NCBI GenBank assembly: GCA_018003015.1
Contig: JAGNEZ010000059.1
Coordinates: forward strand, 1 to 36,900
Source: Phycisphaerae bacterium
GTDB taxonomy: Bacteria > Planctomycetota > Phycisphaerae > UBA1845 > PWPN01
Length of the DNA: 36,900 nucleotides
Direction: 5' to 3'
Positions 4,597 to 32,608 of the stretch are shown piece after piece; within the stretch, counting starts at the first letter, position 1; each line of letters begins with the position of its first letter. The position numbers and the translations under genes were made by a program. The notes beneath the pieces are model-generated. The model did no database searches, was not told the origin of the DNA, and saw only the letters and a program-made list of their open reading frames with translations.

Positions 4597-5601
4597 TCAG
4601 CCTCCTCTTTCTGGTTTGCCCAGTTGGGCATTCTCATTCGATGAAGGACGGCTGCCGCCGGCCGGCCGCGGGGCTGTCGGCGCCTCCAGATCGCCACAAG
4701 CGAATTGGATTGCGTCCAGGTAGAAACGTAGAAGCGCGGGATGCCACCAGATTTCTGTGCGGTGCCCGAAGCCGGTGAAGAAGACCCGGCCGCTGCCGTG
4801 CGGCTTGACCCAGGCTTGGGCGAAATCGCCATCCTTGCGGGTGACCCATGGCACCTTCATGTTCGTCTTCTGCGTATCCAGCGACAGCAGCACTCGTAGA
4901 TTCTGACGCGAATACGGCTCACCGAACTCGTAGATCTCGTCCGCCAAGCGGAAGTCCTTTCCCCCGAACGCCGCCACGAGCGGATGGCGGGGTTCCTCCA
5001 CCTGGATTCCGACCTCCTCGTTCCAGGGATGGCCGATGAACTTGCCGCCCAGCAACTCACGGAACTGAGGCCATTGCGGATTGGCCCCAATGGCGTAGTG
5101 ATAGGCGACGATTCCACCCCCGTTGGCCACATAGTCGAGCAAGCTCTTACGCAGGGCCTTCTCCGCTGCATCTACGTCGTGGCCGTACGCCTTCAGCTTC
5201 TCCAGGTCCGCTTCTGCAGGGCGGATCCACGGCCCGGAGCTGTTGTTCATCACGATAGCGTCAAACCGCCGGATGTTCTCGGGCAGATACACGCTGATGT
5301 CGTCGCTGACCACCGGCTTGTAGGCGCCGGTCTTCTCGCCCAGGACCTTCATGGCCAACTCACCGTAGGGGATGCAGTAGCCCTTGTGCGGATCCTTGTC
5401 CATGAACGCGGGCGGCGTGTTCCAGATCAACACCGTCCGGGCTCTCTTCGGTGCTACGCGGGCCTTTGCCGGGGCCGCCTTGCGGATCAGGTCCGCCTGG
5501 TGCGACGGCACCTGGGCGCTCGCCGAAAACGGCGTGATGAAAGACACCAAGCAGGACACTGCCGCGGAGAGCCTGCAGCCATGCATGAAGAGCCCCTTCA
5601 C
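4597..5601 (-). CDS. ThuA-like domain protein, exported
   Basis: The 334-residue product has a Sec-type signal peptide (hydrophobic stretch ending near SASAQ). A ThuA-like, class I glutamine amidotransferase-fold domain follows: RTVLIWNTPPAF, then YDAIVMNN-like FDAIVMNNSSG, a Gly-rich VANGGGIVAYHYAIG turn, FIGHPWNEE, and a C-terminal GSGRVFFTGFGHRTEIWW. ThuA is linked in rhizobia to trehalose use through 3-keto intermediates; the activity here is inferred only. A GTG start at 5601 overlaps the TGA of the upstream gene by four bases (GTGA), a sign of translational coupling. An ATG at 5586 with AGGGG before it is an alternative that also leaves a good signal peptide. The stop is two bases before the next GTG start. 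Confidence 0.82.
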   Translation of the reverse strand: MKGLFMHGCRLSAAVSCLVSFITPFSASAQVPSHQADLIRKAAPAKARVAPKRARTVLIWNTPPAFMDKDPHKGYCIPYGELAMKVLGEKTGAYKPVVSDDISVYLPENIRRFDAIVMNNSSGPWIRPAEADLEKLKAYGHDVDAAEKALRKSLLDYVANGGGIVAYHYAIGANPQWPQFRELLGGKFIGHPWNEEVGIQVEEPRHPLVAAFGGKDFRLADEIYEFGEPYSRQNLRVLLSLDTQKTNMKVPWVTRKDGDFAQAWVKPHGSGRVFFTGFGHRTEIWWHPALLRFYLDAIQFACGDLEAPTAPRPAGGSRPSSNENAQLGKPERGG

Positions 5602-7034
5602 AAGGTCCAGCCTTTGCGATACTCCGAGCGCAGCAGGGCATCGGCCTCGCCATGGTTGGCGATCTTCATTCCAACCGGTTCGAAATCGAGCCTGCCCTCT
5701 ACCTGCGTAGACACGTTCCCGATCATGAGGAATTCGTTGAGCGCGTCGGCGTAATCAAAATTGGCCCACGCCGGTTTGCCGCCGCGGCAGGCCAGCAGCC
5801 AATCCATCTCGTGCCCGCGCGAGCTTTCGACCGTCTCCGGCCGGTCCCGCTGCACATCCTTGAACTGCTCTTCGGGCAGCAGCCGGAAGGTGGCGTTGTG
5901 GCCGGTCGCGTGGATGCGGCCTTTCGTGCCCACGATGTAGGCGCCGGAGAAGTCTATCCCCTGTCGATCCTTGTCGGCAGCTTCTCGCTTGAGTGAATCG
6001 ATCAGCTCGCTGGCCCCGGGCGCCTGGCCGTTGTACCAGGTAAACATGATCGGCGGGAACTCCGCGCGGGCGGGGATGTGCCACTGAATCAGCTCCCAGC
6101 GCGGGAATGACAGCCGGTTGAGGCTGGAAGACTTGGCCTCAACCCTGATCACCGGCCGGTTGACTCCGCTCGGCTCGCCCAGCCACAGCTCGTACACCTT
6201 AAGCGCCATGAAAGCCAGGTTGGCCGTGTGCGAACCCCAGTTGCCGAGCTGACACGTGCCGAACTCACGCCATTGATGCCACTGCAGCCATTCGTGGCGA
6301 TAGGGGCGGAATGCGGCCGGGCCGAGCCACAAGTCCCACTTCAGGTATTCCGGGACAGGCTCCGTTCCGCTGGGCGGCTCCTTGCGATCCGCACCGCCGC
6401 CGTCGTTCCATATGTGCACTTCCTTGATCTCGCCCAAGGCCCCGCCACGGATCAACTCCAGCGCCCGGCGAAATGGGCCGGCCGCCGTACCCTGGTTGCC
6501 CATGGACGTGGCCACCTTGTACCGGTGGGCCAGCTCGTGCAGAGCCCGCGACTCGTGGACCGTACGGCTCAAGGGCTTTTCACAGAGGACGTGCTTGCCG
6601 GCCCGGATGGCTGCGGCCGATATGACCGCATGGCTGTGGTCGGGCGTGGCCACAACGACCGCGTCGATGTCTTTCGTCGTGTCGAGCATCTCGCGGAAGT
6701 CGTGGAACGTCCGTGGCTTGCTCCTTAGAATCCGCGTGTAGATTTCCGCCGCCCCTCGCTCCCAGTCGTGCGGCGAGGTCGCCAGGGCCCTGGATTGTCG
6801 CGCCCATCGCTGAAACGCCGCGGCCAGCTTCTGGTCGTTCACGTCGCACAGCGCGACCACGTTCTCCATCTTTGGGATCGTGTCCACAAACCACTCGCCG
6901 CGGCCGCCCACGCCCACCAGCGCGACGTTGAGCTTCTCGTTGGCCCGGTAGCCGCGGGCTGATGAGTCGCCCTTCAGGAGCGAAACACCTGTGCCACCCA
7001 GGATCATCCGGCGGAGGAACGTCCGACGACGCAT
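5598..7034 (-). CDS. Tat-exported Gfo/Idh/MocA family oxidoreductase
   Basis: The ATG at 7034 has AGGAG seven bases upstream and gives 478 residues; a longer frame upstream lacks support. The product opens with a twin-arginine signal (MRRRTFLRRMILGGTG). The NAD(P)-binding Rossmann motif is NVALVGVGGRGEW (about 36-48). Family hallmarks follow: TPDHSHA (130-136) and the EKP motif in CEKPLS (151-156). The C-terminal substrate domain includes WHQWREFGTCQLGNWGSH, typical of the planctomycete subgroup. The family oxidises or reduces sugar hydroxyls using a nicotinamide cofactor. Export by Tat fits folding around the cofactor first. It leads the operon with the ThuA-like and isomerase-like genes. 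Confidence 0.9.
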   Translation of the reverse strand: MRRRTFLRRMILGGTGVSLLKGDSSARGYRANEKLNVALVGVGGRGEWFVDTIPKMENVVALCDVNDQKLAAAFQRWARQSRALATSPHDWERGAAEIYTRILRSKPRTFHDFREMLDTTKDIDAVVVATPDHSHAVISAAAIRAGKHVLCEKPLSRTVHESRALHELAHRYKVATSMGNQGTAAGPFRRALELIRGGALGEIKEVHIWNDGGGADRKEPPSGTEPVPEYLKWDLWLGPAAFRPYRHEWLQWHQWREFGTCQLGNWGSHTANLAFMALKVYELWLGEPSGVNRPVIRVEAKSSSLNRLSFPRWELIQWHIPARAEFPPIMFTWYNGQAPGASELIDSLKREAADKDRQGIDFSGAYIVGTKGRIHATGHNATFRLLPEEQFKDVQRDRPETVESSRGHEMDWLLACRGGKPAWANFDYADALNEFLMIGNVSTQVEGRLDFEPVGMKIANHGEADALLRSEYRKGWTL

Positions 7035-7335
7035 CTGTTGACTCCTGACCCACGGCCAGAACGTACAGGCATTCGTCGTTGCCGGCAAGCAAGCCGCCGA
7101 CACGACGACCGCGCACAGTCATCTGCTGGCGATGAGCCGTCTTCAGAGCAGTGCGGGCAGGCTCAGGGCCCTCACCTCCTTGCCAGCCCTCCCTGGAATG
7201 CCGCCAGCAACGACCCGCGGCAGACCAGTTCTCGCCAAGCGGGGCCGTTCACCTTCCGATCGAGTGGCCGCTCTGTTCCTGCGCACCGTTTTTGACTCAT
7301 CGCCATGCCCTGGAGGGCGGGCTCTGTAAGCCTTT

Positions 7336-9969: not shown

Positions 9970-12900
9970 ATGCGCACGAACCTGTACCTACGGTCCTGTA
10001 TCGCGGTACTGGCCTTGTTGGCCGCTGCACCCGCGTGGGGCCAGTTCAGCTATGTCAGCGACTTCAACTCGGTCGCGCCCGGCACGAAGCCTCCGGGCTG
10101 GGCGACCCGGAACTACTATGGCCCAGCTTACGACCCGGTCATCTTCAGCCAGGACCCGGCCGGCTGGAACGAGGCCTGTTCCTCGACGCTGTGGAGCATT
10201 CCAGGAGCCCAGGACTACGCGCTCTGCGGCAATCGCCTCACCCTGATCCACGCAGGCTTCGCCGACGTCGGCGCCGCCACCGCCTGGTACGCCGGCAACT
10301 CCGATCCCGGCTACCCGATGAACCTCCAACAGCAGAGCCTCAAGGCCGAATTCGACATGTTCCTGCGCGTCGGCCATACCTGGATCAATGTAGCGGGGGA
10401 TGGAGCCACCTTCGCCGTTCAACCGGTTGCAGACACGGTTGACGCCCAACAGGCGGTTGGCGCCTGCGGCGCGGGCGGCAGCATGTTCGGGTGGCAGGCC
10501 GGTGGTTTCGCCATTGAGTTTGACAACTGGCCCAGCGGTGGCAACGGCGAACCTGCAGTGTATTCGCAGGGGCTTGGAACGGACTGGGGTCCCGCCAGGA
10601 ACCACCTGGGGGTGGACCTCTACTCGTTCTGGGATCTCTACAGCGTGGGCTTCCCCAGTCTCCAGACCGACTTGGATGTGCTGGATCTCGTCAACGGCCC
10701 GTTCTACTGGCCTACCGGCGTGTCACCTGATGTCTTGCCCTACATGATGATGATTGGTACCTGCAACATCCCCATTCATATTACCGTCTATTACAATGAT
10801 CCGGATCACGGCGGGCTGGGACAGATTCAAGTGTACATGAGGATCCCCAATTCAACCGGTCTGCCCGGCGTCCTGCTCGACCTCCAGCCGGGCGGGTACG
10901 GCCTTGGCGAAGGTGATCCTCCGGAAGGCAAGAAGGTCCTCGACTACCAGGTCGGCCCTTGGCCTAGCACCGGTGCGGTTTTCGGCTTCAGTGCCGGCGG
11001 GGGTTCGGCGACGGGCACCATGCAGTTCGCCAACGTTCGAGTGAGTACCACGGGTGTCAGCGGCACAGCCCTGCCGTACTCCGGCAGTATTCCGCAGCTC
11101 GCCGCCGGCGATCCGGTGACCTTGACCGCTTCGCCGACCGCCGGTACGCCGAGCCAACCCGGCTGGGATGTAACCACGTACGCCTCCAAGGTCCAGCTTC
11201 CCAGTCTTGGCTTCCTCAAGAGAGACATCGCGACGGACCTGGCCTCGGGCGTCAATGCACATCTGTCGCTGCTTGCCAGCGTCACTGGAGAGCCGGCCGT
11301 CGACTACGTCGATACCGGCGATAACGGCAACCTGGGACGGGGCCGGTACTTCCCCGGCCTCACCGACGGGGCCGATCACGACAACTTCGCCATGACGGCC
11401 AAAGGGTGGATCCAGTTCCCGGCCGCCGGCGACTACTCCCTGGGCATTGGCGCTGACGACCAGGTCGAGGTCTCCATCGGAGGCCAAGTCGTACTCTCCG
11501 GTTTCACCGGCATGTACGTCGGTCAGAATGAGGACATCCGCTGCAACCTGCATGTCGACCCCGCCGGCATCTACCCCATCCAGATCACCTATGTTGCCGC
11601 CACGTCCGGCGACGGCGTCGAGTTCTATCGCCGTCTGACCAACATCACCAACCCACTGACCTTCCCGTATGCGGCCATCGGCAGCACCAACGCCGGCCTA
11701 GCCGACCAGCCGGTCGTCTACGGGCTGTTGGACGGCAAGGCAGCGCCTCTGGACTTGTCGGGCGGCGAACCGTGGACACTCACCCTTTCCAAGACCGAGC
11801 GCGTCAGCAACGGCACGACCGCCGGTGCTTCGGGATTCAAGGTCAAGACGACGCCCTCGCCGTGGATCTACTACCAACCCGGCTCGGGCTACAACCTGTT
11901 CTGGAAGCGCGACCGGGAATGTGAAGACTGGAACACCTCTGCGTTGATGTTCCTGGATTTCCTGGGCAATGATCCGGCCCACGCCAGCACCTCCGACACC
12001 ATCAACTTCGCCACTGGCGATACCACCGGGTGGCCTCGTGTGTTCACCGGCGGCACGCCGTTCCCCAACGCTCCCGGTGGCGCTCAGCTCTTCGCCATGC
12101 GAGCCGACGGTTTCGTCACCCTGAGCCCGGGCACCTACTTCCTCGGACTGGACGCCAACGACCAGGCCCGGCTCTTCATCGGCAATCAGGCCATCGACGT
12201 CGTCTACTACCAGCCGCACATCATGCTCTTTGAGCTGGTCGTGCCGCCGGATGCCGGCGGAACGTATCCCATCCGCGTCGAGTACACCCAGTACCTCGAC
12301 GTCGGATACGTCGATCTCTACCAGGTGGTCGATGGCACGGTGGTACCTGTCAACGGCCCGGGTTCCACCATCACCGTGCACCAATCCGTGACGCCGGGTG
12401 CTGCGTATCATGCCGTCAAGACGAACGGCTATGTCATTCCGGCCAGCGCCAAACGCGCCGAGACGGGCCAGGGCGGCACGCTCGGCTGGAACGCTACCTT
12501 CGCGCCCTGCGCAGCAGAGCAACCCTTCTTCGGCTACGCTGAGGCGGCCCTGCAATACGATCTCGCCGGCGGCCCGAACATCGTGATCGTCGCCCCGCCC
12601 GACACCAGCCAACACCCTAGCGTCGTCGCCTATGGAGCCGGCCAGGGGCTCGGCCGTTTCCCCGGTAGCCAGACCAACTGGATGACGGCCTTCCCATCCT
12701 GCCCGGCCGACTATGACAACTTCGCCGTGGCCGTCGAGGGCCTCATCGAGTTCCCCGGGCCGGGGGATTACGGTTTCAACACCTGCACCTCGGGTGCGTG
12801 CAAGATGTGGATCGGCGGGCAACTCGTCCAAAGCCATTCGGCCGCCTACGCCTGGCCTTATAACAACGGCGACCCTGCCCAGGACAACATCCCGGTCTCA

Positions 12901-13986
12901 GTGCACGTGGACGAGGCCGGCCTCTACGACATCCGCGTGGCATACATCCAGTCAACCGCCGTGACTCCCACGCCTCTGCTGGAGGTGTTCCAGTACCAGA
13001 CGGCCGACGCGAGCCCTGTGCTGCTCAACAGCCCCGGCGCTCTCAACGTGTTCCAGAACCTGGCCGACGGCGGCACTCCGCGCAATCCGGTCGTGCTTCC
13101 GACCAGCGCTAAGGTGGCTCCGTATGACGCCGGCATCACCCCGGGTCTGCATGCCGAGGTTGTCTCTTGGGCGGCGGCCAGCGGCGATACATATGGCCAG
13201 TCCGTTTACGGTGGCCTTGGCCACGATGCCTTCATCAATCTCCACCAGGCCAAGGATCTGCTCGACGCGGTGGTCTACGGCGACGCCGATGCGCTGCTTC
13301 GGCAGCAGGGTATGGTCGCGTTCAGCGGCATCGTCTACCAGGTCAGCTTCAAGACCGACAATTGGGCTCTTCCGCCCGGAGAACCGTTCCCGGGAGAGCT
13401 GGATAACTGGTTTGCCATGCGTCTCAGCGGCCGAATCGCTCTGAAGAAGGGCGGCACCGTCATGGGCGTCTTTGCCGATGACGCGGTGATCGTCAAGATT
13501 GGCGGAGTGGACGTGCATCGCGAAGGGGCTACCTACGATGCCAACGAATGGCCGATGATGTACGTGCATGCCCCGGAGGACGGCCTCTACCCCATCGAGA
13601 TCGATTACCTGGCTAAAAGTGGCAACACATTTCTCTGGCTGTTAACCACTGACCCGGCCTGGACGGTGTGGAACCCGATCAACTCGGATCCCAACTACTT
13701 CGGCGTGCATTTCTACGCCGACGTGGCCACTTGCGACCATCAGCCGTTCGCCGACGCGGACGGCGATGGCGACGTCGACCAGGTCGACTTCGGTACGTTC
13801 CAGACGTGCTTCACGGGATCAACGCCGCCGTCCGGGCCGCTTGGCTTGTGCAAGTGCTTCGATCGCGACAACTACGGCGTGGGCAATGGCGCCGTCGACG
13901 CCGCAGACTTGGCGGAGTTCGCCAAGTGCTATACGGGTGCGATGATTCCGTGGTCGTCGGCCCAGTCGCCGGACTGCAAACCCTAG
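9970..13986 (+). CDS. Giant secreted protein: lectin-like domain, four PA14-like modules, dockerin-like C-terminus
   Basis: The 1338-residue product has a Sec signal peptide (MRTNLYLRSCIAVLALLAAAPAWG) and the strong AGGAGG start signal. Residues about 25-240 look like an L-type lectin (concanavalin-like) fold: GDGATFAVQ, AIEFDNW and NHLGVDL echo its conserved strands. Four PA14-like carbohydrate-binding modules follow near 455-560, 685-760, 890-1000 and 1140-1220. Each has a 'DNFAM..G.I.F..AGDY' strand pair and an IGG turn. The end (1257-1330) holds two dockerin-like calcium loops, DADGDGDVDQVDFGTFQTCF and a second with AVDAADLAEFAKCYTG. No catalytic domain is visible, so I read it as a polysaccharide-binding or adhesive surface protein. 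The tail resembles domains recurrent in planctomycete secreted proteins. It is divergent from an AraC-type regulator. Confidence 0.8.
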   Translation: MRTNLYLRSCIAVLALLAAAPAWGQFSYVSDFNSVAPGTKPPGWATRNYYGPAYDPVIFSQDPAGWNEACSSTLWSIPGAQDYALCGNRLTLIHAGFADVGAATAWYAGNSDPGYPMNLQQQSLKAEFDMFLRVGHTWINVAGDGATFAVQPVADTVDAQQAVGACGAGGSMFGWQAGGFAIEFDNWPSGGNGEPAVYSQGLGTDWGPARNHLGVDLYSFWDLYSVGFPSLQTDLDVLDLVNGPFYWPTGVSPDVLPYMMMIGTCNIPIHITVYYNDPDHGGLGQIQVYMRIPNSTGLPGVLLDLQPGGYGLGEGDPPEGKKVLDYQVGPWPSTGAVFGFSAGGGSATGTMQFANVRVSTTGVSGTALPYSGSIPQLAAGDPVTLTASPTAGTPSQPGWDVTTYASKVQLPSLGFLKRDIATDLASGVNAHLSLLASVTGEPAVDYVDTGDNGNLGRGRYFPGLTDGADHDNFAMTAKGWIQFPAAGDYSLGIGADDQVEVSIGGQVVLSGFTGMYVGQNEDIRCNLHVDPAGIYPIQITYVAATSGDGVEFYRRLTNITNPLTFPYAAIGSTNAGLADQPVVYGLLDGKAAPLDLSGGEPWTLTLSKTERVSNGTTAGASGFKVKTTPSPWIYYQPGSGYNLFWKRDRECEDWNTSALMFLDFLGNDPAHASTSDTINFATGDTTGWPRVFTGGTPFPNAPGGAQLFAMRADGFVTLSPGTYFLGLDANDQARLFIGNQAIDVVYYQPHIMLFELVVPPDAGGTYPIRVEYTQYLDVGYVDLYQVVDGTVVPVNGPGSTITVHQSVTPGAAYHAVKTNGYVIPASAKRAETGQGGTLGWNATFAPCAAEQPFFGYAEAALQYDLAGGPNIVIVAPPDTSQHPSVVAYGAGQGLGRFPGSQTNWMTAFPSCPADYDNFAVAVEGLIEFPGPGDYGFNTCTSGACKMWIGGQLVQSHSAAYAWPYNNGDPAQDNIPVSVHVDEAGLYDIRVAYIQSTAVTPTPLLEVFQYQTADASPVLLNSPGALNVFQNLADGGTPRNPVVLPTSAKVAPYDAGITPGLHAEVVSWAAASGDTYGQSVYGGLGHDAFINLHQAKDLLDAVVYGDADALLRQQGMVAFSGIVYQVSFKTDNWALPPGEPFPGELDNWFAMRLSGRIALKKGGTVMGVFADDAVIVKIGGVDVHREGATYDANEWPMMYVHAPEDGLYPIEIDYLAKSGNTFLWLLTTDPAWTVWNPINSDPNYFGVHFYADVATCDHQPFADADGDGDVDQVDFGTFQTCFTGSTPPSGPLGLCKCFDRDNYGVGNGAVDAADLAEFAKCYTGAMIPWSSAQSPDCKP

Positions 13987-14478: not shown

Positions 14479-15960
14479 CTACGATCCGTGCCTGATTCGC
14501 TCGATGATGCCGCTCGTGCTCAGGCCCTTTTCCATGGGCACGAGGACCACCCGGCCGCCCGTGGCTTCGACATGTTCCCGTCCGACCACACCCTTGTTCG
14601 CCCAGTCCTCGCCCTTGACCAGGACGTTCGGGGACAGCTTCTCGATGACCTCCTTCGGGGTCGGGTCGTCGTAGATCACCACGTAGTCCACGCAGCCCAA
14701 GGCGGCCAGAACTTCCGCTCGTTGATCCTGGGGCACGATGGGTCGGCCGGGAGCCTTGCCCTGGGCACGCACCGAGACATCCGAGTTCAGGCCGACGACC
14801 AGGATCGCGCCCATCCTTCGGCACTGTTCCAGCAGCCGCACGTGTCCCACGTGCAGCAGATCGTAGCAGCCGTTCGTGAATACCACCGTCTCGCCCCGGC
14901 TCTTGCGAAGGGCCAGCTCGGCGGCCAGCTCCTTCAAGTCACGAACCTTACTGCCGGCCGAGCCCGACGAGATCCGCAGGTCGGCGATGACCTCGTCGCG
15001 GCGGATCGGCACGCAGCCGAACTTCTCGACTTCCAGGCCGCCGGCCACGTTGGTCAGATGAGCGGCCTGCTCCCAGGTCGCCCCGGCCACCCGAGCGGCC
15101 ACCAGCATGGCCAGCACGGCGTCGCCCGCGCCGGTATTGTCGTACACCGCTCGTGGCCGCGTCGGAACGTGCACCGGCTTCTGCCCGCGGACTGCCAGGA
15201 CCACCCCCTCGCGGTCCAGGGTGACCAGCAACCCCTCTAGGTCACATCGCTCGATCAGGGGGTTCACCTCGGCCAGCACGGTCGTCAAGCTCGTATCCGC
15301 GCAGCCACTGGCGATCTGGAACTCGTTTCGGTTCGGCGTCAGCATCGTTGCCCCGCGGTAACGGGCGTAGTCGCTGACCCGAGCCGGATCCACTAGGACC
15401 GGTTTGCCTGCTTCCCTTGCCGCCGCGATGATGCGTTGGCACAGAGCGTTGCTGAGAAGCCCCTTGCCGTAATCCTCCAGGCACACTGCGACCGCGTGGG
15501 AGGTGCATCGCCGCACCAACTCGGCCAGCCGATCCGCATCCCCGGGACCGAGTGGCCGGGTCACCTCCTCGTCGACGCGCATGAGTTGTTGCCGATGACG
15601 ATGCTGGGCCAGGCCGACGAACCGCGTCTTGGTGGTGGTGGGGCGGTCGCCGACGGCGAGTACGCCGCGTGTGCTGATCGCCTGGTTCTGCAACAGGGCT
15701 CGCAGCCGGCTGCCGGAATCGTCCAGACCGACCGCTCCGCAGCAGATGACGTCCAGGCCGAGCTCACGCAGGTTGGCGGCCACACTGCCGGCCCCGCCGA
15801 CCCGCTCTTCCTCCGATTTCTTGCACAGCACCGGCACCGGTGCCTCCGGGCTGATCCGCTCCGCGTCGCCGTAGACATACCGATCCAGGATCAGATCGCC
15901 GACCAGCAGCACCCGCTGGCCACCGAACGCCTCCACCAATCGAATCAGCTCTGGAATCAA
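14479..15960 (-). CDS. hldE: Bifunctional heptose 7-phosphate kinase / heptose 1-phosphate adenylyltransferase
   Basis: A TTG start at 15960 with AAAGGAG six bases upstream gives 493 residues, close to the 477 of E. coli HldE; further upstream the frame is not protein-like. The N-terminal PfkB/ribokinase domain shows VLLVGDLILDRYVYG, GGAGSVAANL and the ATP-binding DNTGAGDAVLAML (near residue 272). The C-terminal nucleotidyltransferase domain has TNGCYDLLHVGH (HxGH near 368) and KGEDW. The enzyme phosphorylates D-beta-D-heptose 7-phosphate and later adenylates the 1-phosphate, giving ADP-heptose for lipopolysaccharide core. Its presence supports a Gram-negative-type envelope. Other pathway genes (gmhA, gmhB, hldD) are not next to it, although an epimerase lies at 29967. 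Confidence 0.95.
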   Translation of the reverse strand: MIPELIRLVEAFGGQRVLLVGDLILDRYVYGDAERISPEAPVPVLCKKSEEERVGGAGSVAANLRELGLDVICCGAVGLDDSGSRLRALLQNQAISTRGVLAVGDRPTTTKTRFVGLAQHRHRQQLMRVDEEVTRPLGPGDADRLAELVRRCTSHAVAVCLEDYGKGLLSNALCQRIIAAAREAGKPVLVDPARVSDYARYRGATMLTPNRNEFQIASGCADTSLTTVLAEVNPLIERCDLEGLLVTLDREGVVLAVRGQKPVHVPTRPRAVYDNTGAGDAVLAMLVAARVAGATWEQAAHLTNVAGGLEVEKFGCVPIRRDEVIADLRISSGSAGSKVRDLKELAAELALRKSRGETVVFTNGCYDLLHVGHVRLLEQCRRMGAILVVGLNSDVSVRAQGKAPGRPIVPQDQRAEVLAALGCVDYVVIYDDPTPKEVIEKLSPNVLVKGEDWANKGVVGREHVEATGGRVVLVPMEKGLSTSGIIERIRHGS

Positions 15961-16263
15961 GGGCCACTCCTTTGCCCAGGTCGGGATGCTGCCGCCGTAA
16001 CAACCTGTCGGCCAAGTGTTTACACCATGTGACGGGCGCGGGATCGCGTGCCTCGCACCTCGGCGGCTCATGGTATTCAAGCCTTGCGGGAGCGTCAATT
16101 CCCCGGCGACGGCGGGCGGCCTTTCGCGGCCCTTGCATTGGGGCTTGGTTTGACTACACTACCTTCGAAATCGCGTGCGGCGCGGGGCGGGTCGGCTATG
16201 TCCCTTGCACGCCGCGTCATGATTGCTTCCTCACTTTACACACGGAGCACAGGGTTCACCACA
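15961..16263. other. Divergent intergenic region between hldE and the TPR/alpha-CTD gene
   Basis: The 303-base interval carries the hldE ribosome binding site at its left edge and must supply leaders for both genes. Frames running through it are extensions upstream of the real starts. No clear -35/-10 pair or dyad stood out. Confidence 0.45.
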
Positions 16264-17220
16264 ATGATTGATGTCGCCGCTTTGATCCGCGAGGGCAAGA
16301 TCCAACAAGCCGAGACCGAACTGAGCCAGAGCCAGGCGGAATCCGCTAACAATCCGCAATGGCATTTCGCCCGCGGGCGGCTTCTGGAAGCCAAGGGACA
16401 GGGGGGGGATGCCGTGGCCGCCTACGAGAAGGCGCTCAGCATGGACCCCAATCACCAGGAGGCGATGTTTGCCCTGGCCTTCTACCTCGACTTGCACGGT
16501 GCGGATGATGAAGCCGTCAAGTACTACGAGGCCCTGGCCGCCAAGACGCCTGTCCATGTGAACGCGCTGATCAATCTGGCGGTGATTTACGAGGATCGCG
16601 GGCGATATGAGGACGCCCTCCGCTGCATCGATCGCGTCTTGGCGGAGCACCCCAATCACCAGCGGGCCCGCATGTTCGCGAAGGACATCGAGAGCTCGAT
16701 GGACATGTACTATGACGAGAACCAGGAGCGCAGCCGCCAGAAGCGCAATGCGATCCTCGACACCCCGATCGCGGATTTCGAACTCAGCGTCCGCAGCCGT
16801 AACTGCCTCCGCAAGATGAACATCAACTCGCTTGGCGATCTGCTGCGCATTAGTGAGGCGGAACTGCTGGCCTACAAGAACTTCGGTGAGACCTCGCTCA
16901 ACGAGATCAAGGCCATGCTTGCCCAGAAGGGGCTGCGGCTGGGCCAGCTCAAGGAGGAGGCCATTCGCTCCACTCGCCCGGCCCCGCGTCGCCAGCTTCC
17001 GGAGGGTTCCCCGGATGTGCTCAACAAGTACCTGTCCGAGATCGAGTTCTCCAGCCGGTCGCGCAAGTGCCTCCAGCGGCTGAATCTGGTCACCCTGGGC
17101 GACCTGATCATGCGGACCGAGGCAGAGCTTCTGGCGACCAAGAATTTCGGCCAGACCTCCTTGAACGAAATCAAGGCCAAGTTGGCGGAGTTTGGCGTCA
17201 GCCTCCGCAAACCGGAGTAG
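16264..17220 (+). CDS. TPR protein with two RNA polymerase alpha-CTD modules
   Basis: The ATG at 16264 begins a 318-residue protein; earlier starts would add non-homologous sequence. Residues about 1-150 form tetratricopeptide repeats (for example DAVAAYEKALSMDPNHQEAM and DALRCIDRVLAEHPNHQRAR), which bind other proteins. Two modules like the C-terminal domain of RNA polymerase alpha follow. In the first (about 168-218), ELSVRSRNCL and NFGETSLNEIK keep residues equal to E. coli R265, N268, C269, G296, S299 and E302, which contact UP-element DNA; K297 and K298 are replaced. In the second (about 257-312), SRSRKCL keeps R265 and C269 but has Lys at N268. No polymerase assembly domain is present, so this is not rpoA. 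Likely a DNA-binding or transcription-linked adaptor. Similar proteins occur in planctomycetes, but I know of no assigned function. Confidence 0.88.
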   Translation: MIDVAALIREGKIQQAETELSQSQAESANNPQWHFARGRLLEAKGQGGDAVAAYEKALSMDPNHQEAMFALAFYLDLHGADDEAVKYYEALAAKTPVHVNALINLAVIYEDRGRYEDALRCIDRVLAEHPNHQRARMFAKDIESSMDMYYDENQERSRQKRNAILDTPIADFELSVRSRNCLRKMNINSLGDLLRISEAELLAYKNFGETSLNEIKAMLAQKGLRLGQLKEEAIRSTRPAPRRQLPEGSPDVLNKYLSEIEFSSRSRKCLQRLNLVTLGDLIMRTEAELLATKNFGQTSLNEIKAKLAEFGVSLRKPE

Positions 17221-17317
17221 ATTCACGACGATCGCTACCGGGCTGAGCAGTGGGCTGCCGGGCAGGTTGGCTGCCTGTCGAGTGACCACCCGGTCGTTGT
17301 GGTCCCATGATCACCGC

Positions 17318-18574
17318 ATGTGTTGTCTCGCCACACTGGGATTGTGGGTACTCCTCGGCGCGGGCTGTCATCAGACACCCGGGACGGCACCTGCCGGCGC
17401 GGCTTCACGTCCCGCGGAGGCGGTTCCCGAGCCTATCGACCGGCAGATCCGCGTCCTTTTGCTGGAGGGCACGCCCGCGTGTTCGGTCAGCTCGGACGAA
17501 GCGTTCGATCTGATTGACCCTGCCGCAGGTACCCATTTCGGCCAGGGCGAAGGGGGCAAGCCGCTCGGCGTCGTGTTTGAGGGTCAACGGATTCGCGTGC
17601 CATCACTGCAACTCGACTTGGCCGACGAAGTCGTTGATTTGGTGCCCCGCGGCCTGGAGCCCATCGGGATCCAGGTCAACGGCAAGGTCCAGTACTATCG
17701 CGGCTGGATCCGGTTCACGCGGACCGGCGACAACGCCGGTGCGGTCACCAATGTCGTTGACATCGAAGACTACCTCATCGCCGTCGTGGATGCCGAACTT
17801 CCGCGGCGATTCCATCAGGAGACGTTTCGAGCCCAGGCCATCGCGGCTCGGACGTACGCCTGGTATCACAAGCAGACCGCGGGTAAGAAGCGCTCGTGGG
17901 ACGTGAGGGCGACGGAGCGATCGCAGGTATACCGCGGGATCGGCCGGAGTCCACACGGGTCTCCTGCCGCGGAGGCGGTTTACGACACCCGTGGTCTGGT
18001 CTGTGCCTGGGATGCACCCGAGGGCGAGCGGATCTTCTGCACATACTACTCCTCCGCCTGTGGCGGGACGACCGCTTCGGCAGCCGCCATCAATGGGCGG
18101 GAAGACGCCCAGATCCCGCCCCTGGCCGGCAATGTGCAGTGCGATTTCTGCCGAAACGCGCCCGATCGTTCCTGGGGACCGGTTGCACTCGGCAAAACGG
18201 TGATCACCGAGTCGCTTCGCGGCCGATATCCCCGTTTTCGGGCCATCGGTCCCATCGAGCGCATCGAGGTGGCCGAGGCAACTCCCGCCGGGCGAGCCGC
18301 GAGGTACCGGTGCATCGACGGCCAGGATCGCGAGGTCGAGATCGAGGCCGAAAACCTGCGGCTGACCCTCGACCCCACCGGACGCGAGATCCGCAGCACC
18401 TGCTTCGTTCTCGCCAACAACGGCTCTGAGTGCGTGTTCCAGGAGGGACGCGGTTTGGGGCACGGCGTCGGCTTGTGTCAGTATGGCGCAGACGCCTTGG
18501 CTCGCCAGGGGATGAAAGCGAGCCAGATTCTGAAGCTGTATTATCCGTCTTCTCGGGTCAGAAGGGCGTACTGA
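17318..18574 (+). CDS. SpoIID/LytB-domain lipoprotein
   Basis: The ATG at 17318 gives 418 residues starting with a lipoprotein signal (LLGAGC, Cys at residue 17). The SpoIID/LytB domain is recognised by VVDIEDYLIAVVDAELP, FRAQAIAARTYAWYH (about 165-186), the Cys-Gly-Gly segment YYSSACGGTTAS, and the closing GRGLGHGVGLCQYGADALA (near 378-397). In Bacillus, SpoIID is a peptidoglycan lytic transglycosylase and LytB an amidase enhancer. In non-sporulating bacteria such proteins are thought to act on cell-wall glycan, so a role in wall turnover is inferred. It starts about 100 bases after the TPR/alpha-CTD gene, and the next gene starts 12 bases after its stop, suggesting a shared transcript. Confidence 0.87.
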   Translation: MCCLATLGLWVLLGAGCHQTPGTAPAGAASRPAEAVPEPIDRQIRVLLLEGTPACSVSSDEAFDLIDPAAGTHFGQGEGGKPLGVVFEGQRIRVPSLQLDLADEVVDLVPRGLEPIGIQVNGKVQYYRGWIRFTRTGDNAGAVTNVVDIEDYLIAVVDAELPRRFHQETFRAQAIAARTYAWYHKQTAGKKRSWDVRATERSQVYRGIGRSPHGSPAAEAVYDTRGLVCAWDAPEGERIFCTYYSSACGGTTASAAAINGREDAQIPPLAGNVQCDFCRNAPDRSWGPVALGKTVITESLRGRYPRFRAIGPIERIEVAEATPAGRAARYRCIDGQDREVEIEAENLRLTLDPTGREIRSTCFVLANNGSECVFQEGRGLGHGVGLCQYGADALARQGMKASQILKLYYPSSRVRRAY

Positions 18575-18586
18575 AGGTTCGCACGC

Positions 18587-19573
18587 ATGGAGGCTGAGTC
18601 CAGGTTGCGGCTGTCGGCAGTCCTACGCTATGCGGTCTGCGCCGCGGCCTTGGCGTGGCTCTATCACAAGACCGACTGGGGCCAGTTCAAGCAGGTTCTG
18701 GTCAGTGCAGATTGGCGGCTGGCCCTGCTGGCAATGCTGGTCTTCGGTCCCGCGGTGCTGCTCATCTCGGTTCGCCTGAAGGTGCTCCTGGCCGTCCAAC
18801 AGGTCCATCTGTCCGTGTGGCAAGCCGTGAAGGTCACCTTCGCCGGGAACTTCGTGATCAGCGCCTTGCCGGTGGGGACGCCCGGCGGCGATTCGGTCAA
18901 AGCCTACTACGTCGCTCGAGACACACCCCTGAAGCACGAGGCGGTCACGGCCGTCTTCTTCGATCGGGCGGTTGGGGTGCTCGGCCTGCTGCTCATGGCC
19001 GGCGTTATTGTCCTGGCCGACTGGGACAATCCGGCCTTCAGGGTGTGGGGGCGGGTCATCGGCTTCCTCCTGCTGGTCCTGGTGGTGAGCGTAGGTCTGT
19101 ATGCGTCGGCTTCCGTACGCCGCGCACTCCAACTGTGGCGAGTGGTCGCGATTCTGCCTCTCAGCCGACACATTCACCGCGTGGACAAGGCGATCATGGC
19201 TTTCCGCCAAGACCTGGGACGGGTGGCCGTCTCGATGTGCTTAACCTTCGTTCTCCAAACGATTTCCATTGCAGCGTACTTCCTGGGAGGCTGGGCCCTG
19301 GGCGTGGTGGGCACCGATCCCTGGACGGCGTTTCCGGTGTATCTTGCCTATACCCCGATCTGTCTGCTCACCGGAGCGTTGCCGATCGGCGTGATGGAAC
19401 TGACTTTCCAGGAGCTGTTCGCCGGGGCCGCAGGGCTGGGCAGTCCCGAGGCGGCGCTGTCCCTCTCATTCTTCGGGCGACTGATCCAGCTGATCTGGGC
19501 AGTCCCGGGAGGTCTGGTGGTGCTCCGCTCTCGGGCCGACCTGAAAAACGCCGGTCTGGACGCGGCCGAATAG
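18587..19573 (+). CDS. UPF0104 / lysylphosphatidylglycerol synthase-type membrane protein
   Basis: The 328-residue product has about seven or eight hydrophobic segments and the family signature ALPVGTPGGDSVKAYYVARD (about 100-120), which resembles the flippase part of MprF and the UPF0104 family. A FFDRAVGVLGLL segment and a C-terminal GLVVLRSRADLK complete the pattern. The aminoacyl-transferase domain of MprF is absent, so it is not a lysyl-PG synthase itself. Proteins of this type are suspected lipid or lipid-linked sugar transporters; the substrate is unknown. It starts 12 bases after the SpoIID-like gene, so envelope function is plausible. Confidence 0.85.
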   Translation: MEAESRLRLSAVLRYAVCAAALAWLYHKTDWGQFKQVLVSADWRLALLAMLVFGPAVLLISVRLKVLLAVQQVHLSVWQAVKVTFAGNFVISALPVGTPGGDSVKAYYVARDTPLKHEAVTAVFFDRAVGVLGLLLMAGVIVLADWDNPAFRVWGRVIGFLLLVLVVSVGLYASASVRRALQLWRVVAILPLSRHIHRVDKAIMAFRQDLGRVAVSMCLTFVLQTISIAAYFLGGWALGVVGTDPWTAFPVYLAYTPICLLTGALPIGVMELTFQELFAGAAGLGSPEAALSLSFFGRLIQLIWAVPGGLVVLRSRADLKNAGLDAAE

Positions 19574-19828: not shown

Positions 19829-21700
19829 GTGACGAGACTGGACACCCAAATCGAGCAGGCCGCTGCGGCCAAGAACCTGGAAGACCTCAAGAGTGCGATC
19901 GTCCGCTTCGCCGGCGATTCCGGCGACGGCATGCAGGTGGTCGGAACCCAGTTCACCAACGCGACCGCATTGGTGGGCAACGATCTGGCCACCCTGCCGG
20001 ACTTTCCCGCCGAGATCCGTGCTCCGGCCGGGAGTCTCGCCGGGGTCTCCGGCTTCCAGATCAACTTCGCCAGCACCGAGATATTCACGCCCGGAGATAC
20101 CGTCCAGACCCTGGTGGCGATGAACCCGGCAGCCCTCAAAGTCAACCTCGGCGATCTCGAGCGGGGCGGCCATCTCATCGTCAACTCCGACGCGTTCACG
20201 CCCCAGACCATCAAACAGGCAGGTTACGAGAAAGACCCGCTTGAGGGCGACGAGTTGGCCGGCTACCACCTGCACAAGGTGCCCATGACCCGGCTGACGC
20301 TGGACTGCGTCAAGGACGTGGGGCTCAAGCACAAAGATGCGGAACGCTGCAAGAACATCTTCGCCCTGGGACTGACCTATTGGTTGTATGAGCGTCCCCT
20401 GGCCCCAACCCTCCGGTGGCTTCAGGAGAAGTTCGGCAAGGACGAGAAGCTTCGCCAGGCCAACGAGTTGGCTCTTCGGGCGGGCTTCAACTATGGCAAC
20501 ACCACCGAGCTCTTTCAGGTTCACTATCGAATTCCCCCCGCCAGGCAGGAACCAGGCGTCTACCGCAAGATCAGGGGAAACGACGCGACCGCCTACGGTC
20601 TGGTCGCCGCCGCGTGGCAGGCCGGCAAGCGGCTCTTCTACACCGGCTACCCGATTACTCCGGCCAGCGACATCCTCCACGAACTGGTCAAGCACAAGAA
20701 CTTCCAGGTGAAGGTGTTCCAGGCTGAGGACGAGATTGCCGCGATGTGTGCGGCGATCGGGGCGGCGTATGGGGGGGCCATGGCCGCCACCGGCACGAGC
20801 GGGCCGGGCATGGCCCTCAAAAGCGAGGCTCTTGGCCTCGCGGTCATGCTCGAGTTGCCGGTCGTGATCATCAATGTCCAGCGGGCCGGGCCGAGCACCG
20901 GTTTGCCCACCAAGACCGAGCAGGCCGACCTGCTCCAGGCTGTCGGCGGGCGCCACGGCGAGTGCCCGCTGCCCATTCTCGCCGCCCAGTCACCCTCGGA
21001 CTGCTTCTGGACAGCGTTTGAGGCGTTCCAGATCGCGGTCAGATACATGACTCCCGTGATCATGCTCAGCGATGGCTACCTGGCCAATGGATCGGAGCCG
21101 TGGCGTGTGCCCCGGGTCGAGGATCTGCCCAGGATTCCCGTGGTCCACGCCACCGATCCCGAGGGCTTCAATCCTTACTCGCGCAACGCGGAGCTCGCCC
21201 GTCCGTGGGCGCTGCCCGGGACCCGGGGGCTGGCCCATCGGGTCGGCGGATTGGAGAAGGAAGACCTCACCGGTCGTGTGTCCTACGACCCGGTGAATCA
21301 TGAGCGCATGTGCCGGTTCAGGGCGGCCAAGATCGCCAAGGTGGCCGAGAGCATTCCGGATCAGGCCATCTACGGCGACGATCACGGCGACCTCGTCCTG
21401 GTCAGCTGGGGCGGCACCTTTGGCTCGGTTCGGACCGCCGTCGAGCGGGCCAGAGAGGCCGGCCTGAGCGTCTCCCACATTCACGTCCGCCACCTGAACC
21501 CCATGCCCCGCAATCTCGGCACGCTTCTCCGGGGGTTCCGAAAGATCCTTGTTCCTGAGCTCAATATGGGCCAGTTGAACATGCTTCTTCGCGCCACCTA
21601 CCTGGTTGACGCCGTCGGGATCGACAAGATGCAGGGCCGGCCCTTTACCGTGGCCGAGCTGGTGCTCAGGATTCAGCAGACCCTCAAGGGGGATCATTGA
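19829..21700 (+). CDS. korA: 2-oxoacid:ferredoxin oxidoreductase alpha subunit (fused gamma-alpha), likely 2-oxoglutarate
   Basis: A GTG at 19829 is the best visible start (623 residues), though no good ribosome binding site precedes it. The N-terminal gamma-like domain shows [16 protein letters not shown] and ends before residue 200. The pyrimidine-binding alpha domain follows, with [15 protein letters not shown] (from about 271) and [21 protein letters not shown]-terminal transketolase-like domain contains [15 protein letters not shown]. With KorB it oxidatively decarboxylates 2-oxoglutarate (or a related 2-oxoacid) to the CoA thioester, reducing ferredoxin; it can run in reverse in anaerobes. 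The substrate is inferred from the fused arrangement and gene pair. The korB ATG follows one base after this stop. Confidence 0.93.
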
Positions 21701-21701
21701 C

Positions 21702-22742
21702 ATGTCCGATACCGCGACCTTGCCGGTGGTTAATCTGCAGCCCAAGGACTACGGAAGCAGCCAGGAAATCCGCTGGTGCCCAGGCTGTGGCGACTACTCC
21801 ATCCTGGCCCAGATCAAGAAGGCGTTCAGCAATCTGGGCAAGGACCCAGACAACGTGGTGTTCGTCTCCGGGATCGGCTGCTCCAGCCGGTTGCCGTACT
21901 ACATGAACACCTACGGGATCCACGGCATCCATGGACGGGCCCCGGCCCTGGCAACGGGTCTGCGGCTGGCCCGCCCGGATCTCGAGATCTGGGTGATCAC
22001 CGGTGACGGTGACGGCCTGTCCATCGGCGGCAATCATTTGCTCCACTCGATCCGCCGCAATCTCAACATCAAGATCCTCATGTTCAACAACCGAATCTAC
22101 GGCCTGACCAAGGGGCAGGTGTCGCCGACCTCGGAACGAAACAAGAGGACCGTGTCGACGCCGTTCGGCTCCGTCGGAGCCAGCATCAATCCCTGCTCCT
22201 TCGCCATCGGCGCGGAGGCCACCTTCGTCGCCCGCACCGTGGATATGTATCCCGCCCATCTCCAGTACACTCTCGAACGGGCGTCCAAGCACCACGGAAT
22301 GGCTTTTGTCGAGATCTATCAGAACTGCAACATCTTCAACAACGAGGCGTTCAATCACGCCACCGACCGCGAGACGCGCGACGACAACATCGTCGAGCTC
22401 GAGCACGGCAAGGCTCTGATCTTCGGGAAGAACAAGGACAAGGGCGTTCGCCTTCGCCGCGACTACCGGCCGGAAGTTGTCAAACTGGGCGATGACGGAG
22501 CCAGCATCTATGACCTCCTGATTCATGACGAGAAAGCTACCTCGCCGGCCCTGGCGTTCCTCCTCAGCCGCCTGCGCTACCCGGACTACCCCGAGCCCAT
22601 CGGAGTCTTCCGGGATATCGAGCAGGCGGTCTACAACGAGCTGATCGAGGAGCAGATCCAGCGGCTGACCAAGGAGAAGGGCGAGCCCGATCTCCAGAAG
22701 TTGCTCAACGGCCCGGAAACCTGGGAAATGAAAGCGAATTGA
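21702..22742 (+). CDS. korB: 2-oxoacid:ferredoxin oxidoreductase beta subunit
   Basis: The 346-residue product starts at the ATG at 21702, one base after korA, with AGGGGG about ten bases upstream. It carries RWCPGCGDYSIL and GIGCSS, whose cysteines bind an iron-sulfur cluster, and the thiamine diphosphate motif GDGDGLSIGGNHLLH followed by NNRIYGLTKGQ. A later Cys lies in YQNCNIFNNEAF. This subunit holds the thiamine cofactor and cluster that pass electrons to ferredoxin. No separate delta (ferredoxin-like) or gamma gene is nearby, matching the two-subunit KorAB form. Confidence 0.94.
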   Translation: MSDTATLPVVNLQPKDYGSSQEIRWCPGCGDYSILAQIKKAFSNLGKDPDNVVFVSGIGCSSRLPYYMNTYGIHGIHGRAPALATGLRLARPDLEIWVITGDGDGLSIGGNHLLHSIRRNLNIKILMFNNRIYGLTKGQVSPTSERNKRTVSTPFGSVGASINPCSFAIGAEATFVARTVDMYPAHLQYTLERASKHHGMAFVEIYQNCNIFNNEAFNHATDRETRDDNIVELEHGKALIFGKNKDKGVRLRRDYRPEVVKLGDDGASIYDLLIHDEKATSPALAFLLSRLRYPDYPEPIGVFRDIEQAVYNELIEEQIQRLTKEKGEPDLQKLLNGPETWEMKAN

Positions 22743-31500: not shown

Positions 31501-32265
31501 CTACTTGGCTTGGCTCGTGTTCTCCGTCTGGCCGTCCAGGCGGCCCGACCAGGCCGTGCCCCGCTGCAGGAGCTGCACGAACTGAGGCAGACGGCAGGCC
31601 TTGGCGTCATGTCCCAGGACGATGTTGAAGACCCGCCCCTGGCCGTAGTCCAAGGTCCAGGCGATGGGTTCGGTCTTCTTGCTCCATTCGGAGTAGGCTT
31701 CGACCAGCACGTTGATGGGGGTGTCGCCGATCAGCTTGGCATACAGCTCATCGTCGGCCTCGAAATCGGTCAGCCCCTGGGTGATGTAGTGATCCGCATT
31801 GGCGACTTTCACCTTGAACGTGCCCCGGGGACCATGACCGGAGCCGTCGACCCAGATCCGCCCGATCAGTTTCCGGTACTCCGCCCATTTGCCCCAAGCC
31901 CGGACCGAGAAGTGGAAGGACACCAAGCCCTTCCCGCTCTTGACGAATTTCAGCAGGTTCTCCTTGGCCTGGTCGGTGATTTCCGGGCGTTCCCAGTTGT
32001 AGTAGTTGAGCAGGATGACGTCATAACTGGCCAGTACCGAAGACTCCAGGACGGCGGGCTCCTCGCTGACCAGGACCTCGAACTGTCCGGTCTTCTCCAG
32101 GGCTTCGCGAAGAGCCGGAGTCGTCTCCCGCCAAGGGTGAGCGGGAACGTCACGTCCGGTAACCACTAGGATGCGGCTCAGTCTCTTGGCTTGTGGTTTG
32201 TCTGCGGCGACGGCAGTCGTGGCGAATGTGGCGGTCAGGCAGGCGATCCATAGCGTCCATTTCAT
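31501..32265 (-). CDS. ThuA-like domain protein, exported (second copy)
   Basis: The ATG at 32265 with AGGGAG upstream gives 254 residues, the first 21 a signal peptide ending AVAAD. The ThuA-like fold shows RILVVTGRDVPAHPWRETTP, YDVILLNYYNWERP, VKSGKGLVSFHFSVRAWGKW and the closing GQGRVFNIVLGHDAKA. It differs clearly from the ThuA-like protein at 4597 and is not a recent duplicate. It probably acts on a sugar compound in the periplasm, again with unknown substrate. It stands alone, divergent from the RRM gene. Confidence 0.85.
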   Translation of the reverse strand: MKWTLWIACLTATFATTAVAADKPQAKRLSRILVVTGRDVPAHPWRETTPALREALEKTGQFEVLVSEEPAVLESSVLASYDVILLNYYNWERPEITDQAKENLLKFVKSGKGLVSFHFSVRAWGKWAEYRKLIGRIWVDGSGHGPRGTFKVKVANADHYITQGLTDFEADDELYAKLIGDTPINVLVEAYSEWSKKTEPIAWTLDYGQGRVFNIVLGHDAKACRLPQFVQLLQRGTAWSGRLDGQTENTSQAK

Positions 32266-32405
32266 ATCCGGTCTCCCTGATAAGCGGGTGTGGTGGTTGC
32301 CCTGGCGTCCCGGTCGCGGGTCGCCGAAGGCAGGAGAAATTATATCTGTGGCCGGCCCGACCCCCAAGAGCTCAAGCTCGGGGTGCGATTTTTCCGTAAA
32401 TAGAC

Positions 32406-32438
32406 TGTACACATCCAGCCGGGGGGGTATAATACCCC
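32406..32438 (+). promoter_or_regulatory. Candidate promoter of the RRM gene with overlapping palindrome
   Basis: TGTACA (32406-32411) and a perfect TATAAT (32428-32433) are 16 bases apart, a usable sigma-70 layout though the -35 box matches only 4 of 6. The -10 box is embedded in a perfect hyphenated palindrome, GGGGTAT-a-ATACCCC (32424-32438). A start near 32440 would give a leader of about 170 bases before the ATG at 32609. The palindrome could be an operator. Confidence 0.5.
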
Positions 32439-32608
32439 TACGGTTGGTACGTCGATGTGAGTCGGGTACGAGACGTGGAAAGAACAAGTCCGGATCGTGT
32501 TCTCAGTCGCCTTCCTACCAGTATTGGGCCGAGACGGCGGCCCCTTTCATATCAGACCCGGAAAGCAAAAAGCGGGTCCAGAGAAGCCCTCGGACAGGAG
32601 ATCTCACG

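Follow-up and report, generated by a model that had tools for sequence, protein, structure and literature searches.

The window analysed here, a stretch of 36,900 nucleotides from a Phycisphaerae bacterium, encodes a TPR protein with two copies of the C-terminal domain of the RNA polymerase α subunit (αCTD). It probably acts as a transcription factor, so far unstudied, throughout the phylum Planctomycetota. On balance we lean towards the view that it is a soluble cytoplasmic protein that would read AT-rich promoter DNA with two heads and hold a partner in an acidic groove of its TPR domain; both the DNA binding and the partner are inferences. The gene is present in single copy in essentially all genomes sampled across the phylum, and its αCTDs are at least as strictly conserved as those of the polymerase itself, copy 1 more so. 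The initial annotation stated that no characterised function was known, and this agrees with the open-access literature, in which we found no description of the protein; it may have been described in a subscription journal. The passages found in the main text of a study of essential genes in Planctopirus limnophila (PMC10632474) do not mention the gene.

Domain composition and predicted structure

The coordinates proposed in the initial annotation coincide exactly with a coding sequence (Table 1). The open frame extends upstream to 16048; the ATG at 16264 was chosen as the start because its position is conserved in close relatives, and the sequence preceding it is unrelated among near relatives. 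The Pfam analysis identified RNA_pol_A_CTD (PF03118) twice (whole-protein E-value 2.5e-42) and several TPR models in the N-terminal part (E-values up to 2.3e-16), which bears out the original reading of the domains. That reading also held in respect of the missing α N-terminal domain (αNTD): Pfam models detect none, the NCBIfam rpoA models match essentially via the C-terminal domain and far under their cut-offs (TIGR02027: 135.9 vs 227.8 bits), and a normal, separate rpoA is found on another contig (C18) of the same genome. The protein therefore shares with RpoA the αCTD, in two copies, and not the αNTD, and since the latter is missing it cannot be assembled into the polymerase as α. A chance or misread frame is ruled out by the E-values, the conserved start and the phylum-wide orthologs. 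Neither a signal peptide nor a membrane segment is present (maximal 19-residue Kyte-Doolittle mean 1.35).

Table 1. Coordinates of the TPR/double-αCTD gene, its parts and the next gene in the window
Feature	Coordinates	Strand	Basis
TPR/double-αCTD protein (318 aa, complete coding sequence)	16264..17220	+	Pfam, conserved start codon
TPR domain, residues 1–148	16264..16707	+	AlphaFold2 model, conservation, match to 4r7s
Connector with conserved M-Y-Y-D-E motif, residues 148–157	16705..16734	+	M148 100%, D151 89%, E152 86%
αCTD copy 1, residues 158–227	16735..16944	+	Pfam, alignment of 101 sequences
Variable, predicted disordered linker, residues 228–250	16945..17013	+	pLDDT <50 at 237–242; column entropy
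αCTD copy 2, residues 251–315	17014..17208	+	Pfam, alignment of 101 sequences
SpoIID-like protein, next gene (ORF as listed)	17192..18574	+	PF08486, E-value 3.4e-20

Most members of the family are about 450 aa long and carry additional TPR-like sequence in front, the family of the window being the short form. The longer forms (L084, L107, L112 and other Isosphaeraceae loci) begin with a conserved segment, M.T.DVRA.MDR.PFD...VADLRE.L.RDPSRYRTLR, which precedes the TPRs and is missing from the short form.

The AlphaFold2 model of the protein, based on 56 orthologs, has a mean pLDDT of 91.9 and arranges the chain as TPR helices up to residue 148, the first αCTD, a disordered linker at about residues 237–242 and the second αCTD; the pTM is only 0.56, and the model does not fix how the domains sit relative to one another. 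Of the four helix pairs in the TPR domain, three are canonical and one is degenerate, and a capping helix completes the fold; VIA-align superimposes the domain on the TPR protein 4r7s (Z 18.1, 2.7 Å over 148 residues), so that Pfam, the model and this match agree on at least three 34-residue helical repeats that make a groove. Residues F69, D76, N104, E110 and D111 are fixed at 96–100%, and because the TPR motif numbering puts them in the groove, they suggest an acidic peptide-binding surface. The αCTD copies match known αCTDs with Z 12–13 at about 1–1.6 Å over 65–68 residues. For a second model, restricted to residues 149–318, the best structural matches are αCTDs on AT-rich DNA: chain D of 9zum (αCTD on AT-rich DNA; 0.7 Å over 64 columns) and chain C of 3n97 (αCTD with σ region 4 on UP/-35 DNA; 0.8 Å over 64).

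Phyletic distribution and genomic neighborhood

The initial annotation proposed a survey of such fusions across Planctomycetota, and exactly one ortholog was found in 113 of 119 evenly sampled species of the phylum (E-value <1e-30), including 70 of the 71 high-quality genomes (at least 90% complete) in this draw. Absence of the gene from the 71st (G071) is not supported, as a piece of copy 2 sits there at a contig end (positions 6562–6750 of 6757). A first set of relatives gave matches in 41 of 41 genomes, 40 of them long and one (G030) a fragment of residues 188–316, and the best 80 loci from a collection of 84,980 species all bear planctomycete titles, save one labelled only 'bacterium'. Short matches in about ten divergent genomes had suggested a loss of copy 2; this was mostly wrong, copy 2 being present behind a longer linker in 8 of the 10 checked, while at one locus (L168) a contig end truncates the gene; the only ortholog that lacks copy 2 is that of L163, from the one-contig genome G128, and it ends in a Lys-rich tail. 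Plasmid records contain no full-length match to the protein, and the matches in a phage collection (to αCTD copy 1) and on viral contigs are αCTD-only. The gene is universal and single-copy in the phylum and is not a mobile-element or phage gene. What the initial annotation got right is the domain reading and the lack of a characterised function; the gene is a core gene of the phylum and no local curiosity.

The downstream genes are partly conserved. Of the nearer relatives, 74 have sufficient sequence beyond the gene; SpoIID, Tgt or RuvA lies directly downstream in 66 of them, and the region encodes SpoIID in 46, Tgt in 42, and YajC and SecD in 35 each. The linkage to spoIID/tgt/yajC/secD seen in these relatives is not general: spoIID is nearby in only 5 of 40 divergent genomes, and ruvA is the neighbor in that set (weak SpoIID matches inside the anchor gene itself, with E-values of 1e-6 to 1e-10, were discarded here, as the query ORFs overlap it). 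The simplest reading is an ancestral operon [TPR-αCTD]-ruvA-ruvB-spoIID-tgt-yajC-secD, differently eroded in each lineage. The window retains only SpoIID of this cluster (the true start of the listed ORF probably lies after 17220), tgt being on contig C29 and ruvC-ruvA on contig C68. Where the upstream genes are conserved (we take them to be Ffh, rpsP and MurA), they point away, as does an HldE-type bifunctional protein with PfkB and cytidylyltransferase domains in the window (14479–16098, minus strand); the TPR-αCTD gene is therefore usually the first in its operon. Most close relatives have no AT-rich stretch upstream of the gene, and autoregulation through an UP element is thus unsupported.

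Elsewhere in the window, SpoIID is followed by a membrane protein of the lysylphosphatidylglycerol synthase TM-region type (18587–19573, plus strand) and, beyond it, a 2-oxoacid:ferredoxin oxidoreductase pair (19829–22742). A 1338-aa protein with three PA14 stretches is encoded at 9970–13986 (plus strand), with shadow ORFs on both strands, and there are two ThuA-domain proteins, at 4597–5601 and 31501–32487 (both on the minus strand), of which the former adjoins a Gfo/Idh/MocA oxidoreductase (5598–7103).

Owing to this gene order, the main rival to a role in transcription is that of an accessory to recombination or DNA structure, in which the αCTD/HhH modules would bind DNA or junctions for RuvAB, the TPR domain would hold a Ruv protein, and the likeness to the polymerase would be a matter of ancestry only. 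Such a role remains a candidate because the order ties the gene to the ruvA-ruvB-spoIID-tgt-yajC-secD cluster: ruvA lies directly 3' in 14 of 29 genomes of one phylum-level set, and linkage to it is seen in 22 of 40 of another, the order ruvA-ruvB-spoIID is kept downstream in 5 genomes, with tgt next in 4 of them, and the neighbor is a genuine RuvA (RuvA_N and HhH domains), which likewise binds DNA through an HhH fold. However, this linkage is frequently lost, as in the genome of the window, where ruvC and ruvA stand together on another contig, and since RuvCAB-tgt-yajC-secDF form a housekeeping cluster in many bacteria, co-transcription need not imply a shared function. The RuvAB role also leaves the σ-contacting acidic residues discussed below without a reason to persist, and we consider it unlikely. 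Replacement of ruvC by the TPR-αCTD gene is ruled out, ruvC being found elsewhere in 36 of 39 genomes.

Contact residues and the predicted function

In the alignment of 101 sequences, residues R177, N180, C181, N206, G208, S211 and E214 of copy 1, which correspond to R265, N268, C269, N294, G296, S299 and E302 of E. coli α, are conserved at 100%, and Thr at position 298 at 99%. The numbering of copy 2 happens to coincide with that of E. coli α; the protein of the window has R265, K268, C269, G296 and S299 there, and across the family R265 and T298 are conserved at 100%, N294, G296, S299 and E302 at 98% and C269 at 80%, while position 268 is invariably basic (K 83%, R 16%). The residues of an UP-element binder are thus all in place, save for positions 268 and 269 in copy 2. 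The contacts first listed (R265, C269, G296 and S299 in both copies, N268 in the first and Lys in the second) are therefore confirmed by the alignment; that list had overlooked N294, E302 and D259/E261, which are also kept, and the replacement of K298 by Thr in both copies. This replacement does not amount to a loss of DNA contact, because Thr298 is likewise fixed in the RpoA of Planctomycetota. Position 267 is Arg in 100% of copy 1 and 88% of copy 2, and Ser, Asn or Gly in RpoA.

Altogether, 8 of 8 DNA-contact positions are conserved at 99–100% in copy 1 and 6 of 8 at 98% or more in copy 2. Their mean column entropy is 0.01 against 0.75 for the whole domain in copy 1 (permutation P-value 2e-5) and 0.22 against 1.34 in copy 2 (P-value 3e-5), where the test compares contact positions with random positions of the same domain and takes no account of how deeply residues are buried in the fold; the excess persists in both copies when only polar, Gly and Cys positions are compared. 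The linker region (residues 225–251) has a mean entropy of 2.69. Among 14 genomes with both genes, copy 1 has the highest mean pairwise identity (76.9%), ahead of the RpoA CTD (70.9%), the RpoA NTD (68.3%), copy 2 (63.7%) and the TPR part (48.9%). In the phylogenetic tree, copy 1, copy 2 and the RpoA CTDs form three separate groups (supports 0.97, 0.78 and 0.59), hence the duplication predates the sampled lineages.

Phylum-wide fixation of the contact positions, far above the domain average, supports the earlier idea that the αCTDs may still contact DNA, and the conservation is in part due to the HhH fold itself and to common descent from RpoA. Could the modules instead work off DNA, as mere helix-hairpin-helix contacts to protein or RNA (e.g. 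NusA or the ribosome)? The E. coli αCTD also contacts proteins, and HhH folds are widely used; the minor-groove side chains R265, N294 and S299, on the other hand, rank with the best-conserved residues of both αCTDs, and we give this explanation little credence. A nucleoid-associated protein, whose two linked minor-groove binders would coat or bridge AT-rich regions throughout the genome, with oligomerisation through the TPR domain, would account for the flexibly joined pair of DNA modules and for one copy in essentially all genomes, and TPR domains can self-associate. Yet neither αCTD is strongly basic (net charges +1 and +2, pI 8.2 and 9.0), the whole protein is acidic (pI 6.2), and the acids that contact σ are conserved, which makes a nucleoid role quite improbable.

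In E. coli, D259 and E261 of the αCTD contact R603 of σ70 (PMC5511352). The equivalent D171 and E173 of copy 1 are conserved at 94% and 98% in the 101 sequences, more than the same sites in the phylum's RpoA, and copy 2 keeps them in part (E/D 90% at 259, E 55% at 261). The main σ factor (σA) of the same genome ends in ...HPVRSRKLEGFLD and retains the Arg equivalent to R603 (...HPVRSRKL), and both sides of an αCTD-type contact with σ region 4 are thus present for copy 1. The conservation of this acidic pair, together with that of position 286 (96%), would also suit a decoy, in which the αCTDs, free of the polymerase, capture activators or σ region 4 in competition with those of the polymerase and make little DNA contact themselves. 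A pure decoy has no need of the full DNA-contact set in both copies, nor of the Arg and Lys gained around the contacts, and we judge it improbable.

Under the promoter-reading interpretation, the two αCTDs on their flexible linker would insert R265-type arginines into narrow minor grooves, much like the αCTD pair of the polymerase α dimer, the D259/E261 patch of copy 1 would touch σ region 4 beside the -35 element, and the conserved acidic TPR groove would hold a partner, presumably a basic peptide. In this way, partner and transcription initiation could either meet at such promoters or be held off them. We infer the DNA binding, the σ contact and the partner, as well as activation or competition with the polymerase's αCTDs, from the domains, the predicted fold, the single copy phylum-wide, the fixation of contact residues and the retained σ Arg. 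Against promoter reading stand the change at position 268 in copy 2, the lack of copy 2 in G128 and the neighbors, which are recombination, tRNA-modification and secretion genes and not transcription genes. Or perhaps the protein could provide a second αCTD pair in trans, docking, as a TPR protein encoded by a core gene, on the polymerase or σ and reading the upstream DNA of promoters as a phylum-specific general initiation factor? This is conceivable, if rather doubtful; were it true, up to four αCTDs, not two, would read planctomycete promoters. The promoter logic of Planctomycetota has been little studied, and if the protein does read promoters, it would rank as a general transcription factor that is either peculiar to the phylum or characteristic of it. 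Planctopirus limnophila, which is genetically tractable, offers a way to test it directly.

Relationship to known αCTD proteins

The closest known counterpart is the αCTD of RpoA (PF03118; 1LB2 and 3N97 from E. coli, 9ZUM from Caulobacter), with the same fold, DNA-contact residues, σ-contact acids and flexible tether. In contrast to RpoA, the TPR-αCTD protein lacks the αNTD and carries both copies in one chain behind a TPR domain, and R267 and K/R268 are particular to it. The αCTD is also used outside RpoA by the BREX protein PglW (NF033442), by the short NF005841/PRK07758 family (NF033442 and NF005841 being among the NCBIfam matches of the TPR-αCTD protein) and by phage σ4-αCTD fusions. The latter are 207-aa proteins encoded on IMG/VR viral contigs (L176:2581-3201 and L177:2581-3201; Sigma-70 region 4 PF04545, E-value 3.9e-14; αCTD PF03118, E-value 3.7e-16), and because of them the αCTD is seen to occur beside σ-type domains without an αNTD. 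Two further IMG/VR loci (L175:2485-3213 and L174:2878-3225) encode αCTDs without an αNTD, of which one lies behind an HTH-like region and the other belongs to a small protein no longer than 116 aa. The partner of the αCTD differs, being a kinase in PglW, none in NF005841/PRK07758 and σ region 4 in the viral fusions, and none of these proteins combines TPRs with two αCTDs or is known to us as a core gene product of a phylum.

AfsR/SARP-type regulators, too, are transcription factors with a TPR domain that work at the promoter and the αCTD, as proposed here; AfsR is equipped with SARP DNA-binding and NOD domains and touches the αCTD of the polymerase (PMC10936776), whereas the TPR-αCTD protein carries the αCTDs itself. 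The combination of TPRs with tandem αCTDs is thus not matched by any of the αCTD proteins compared.
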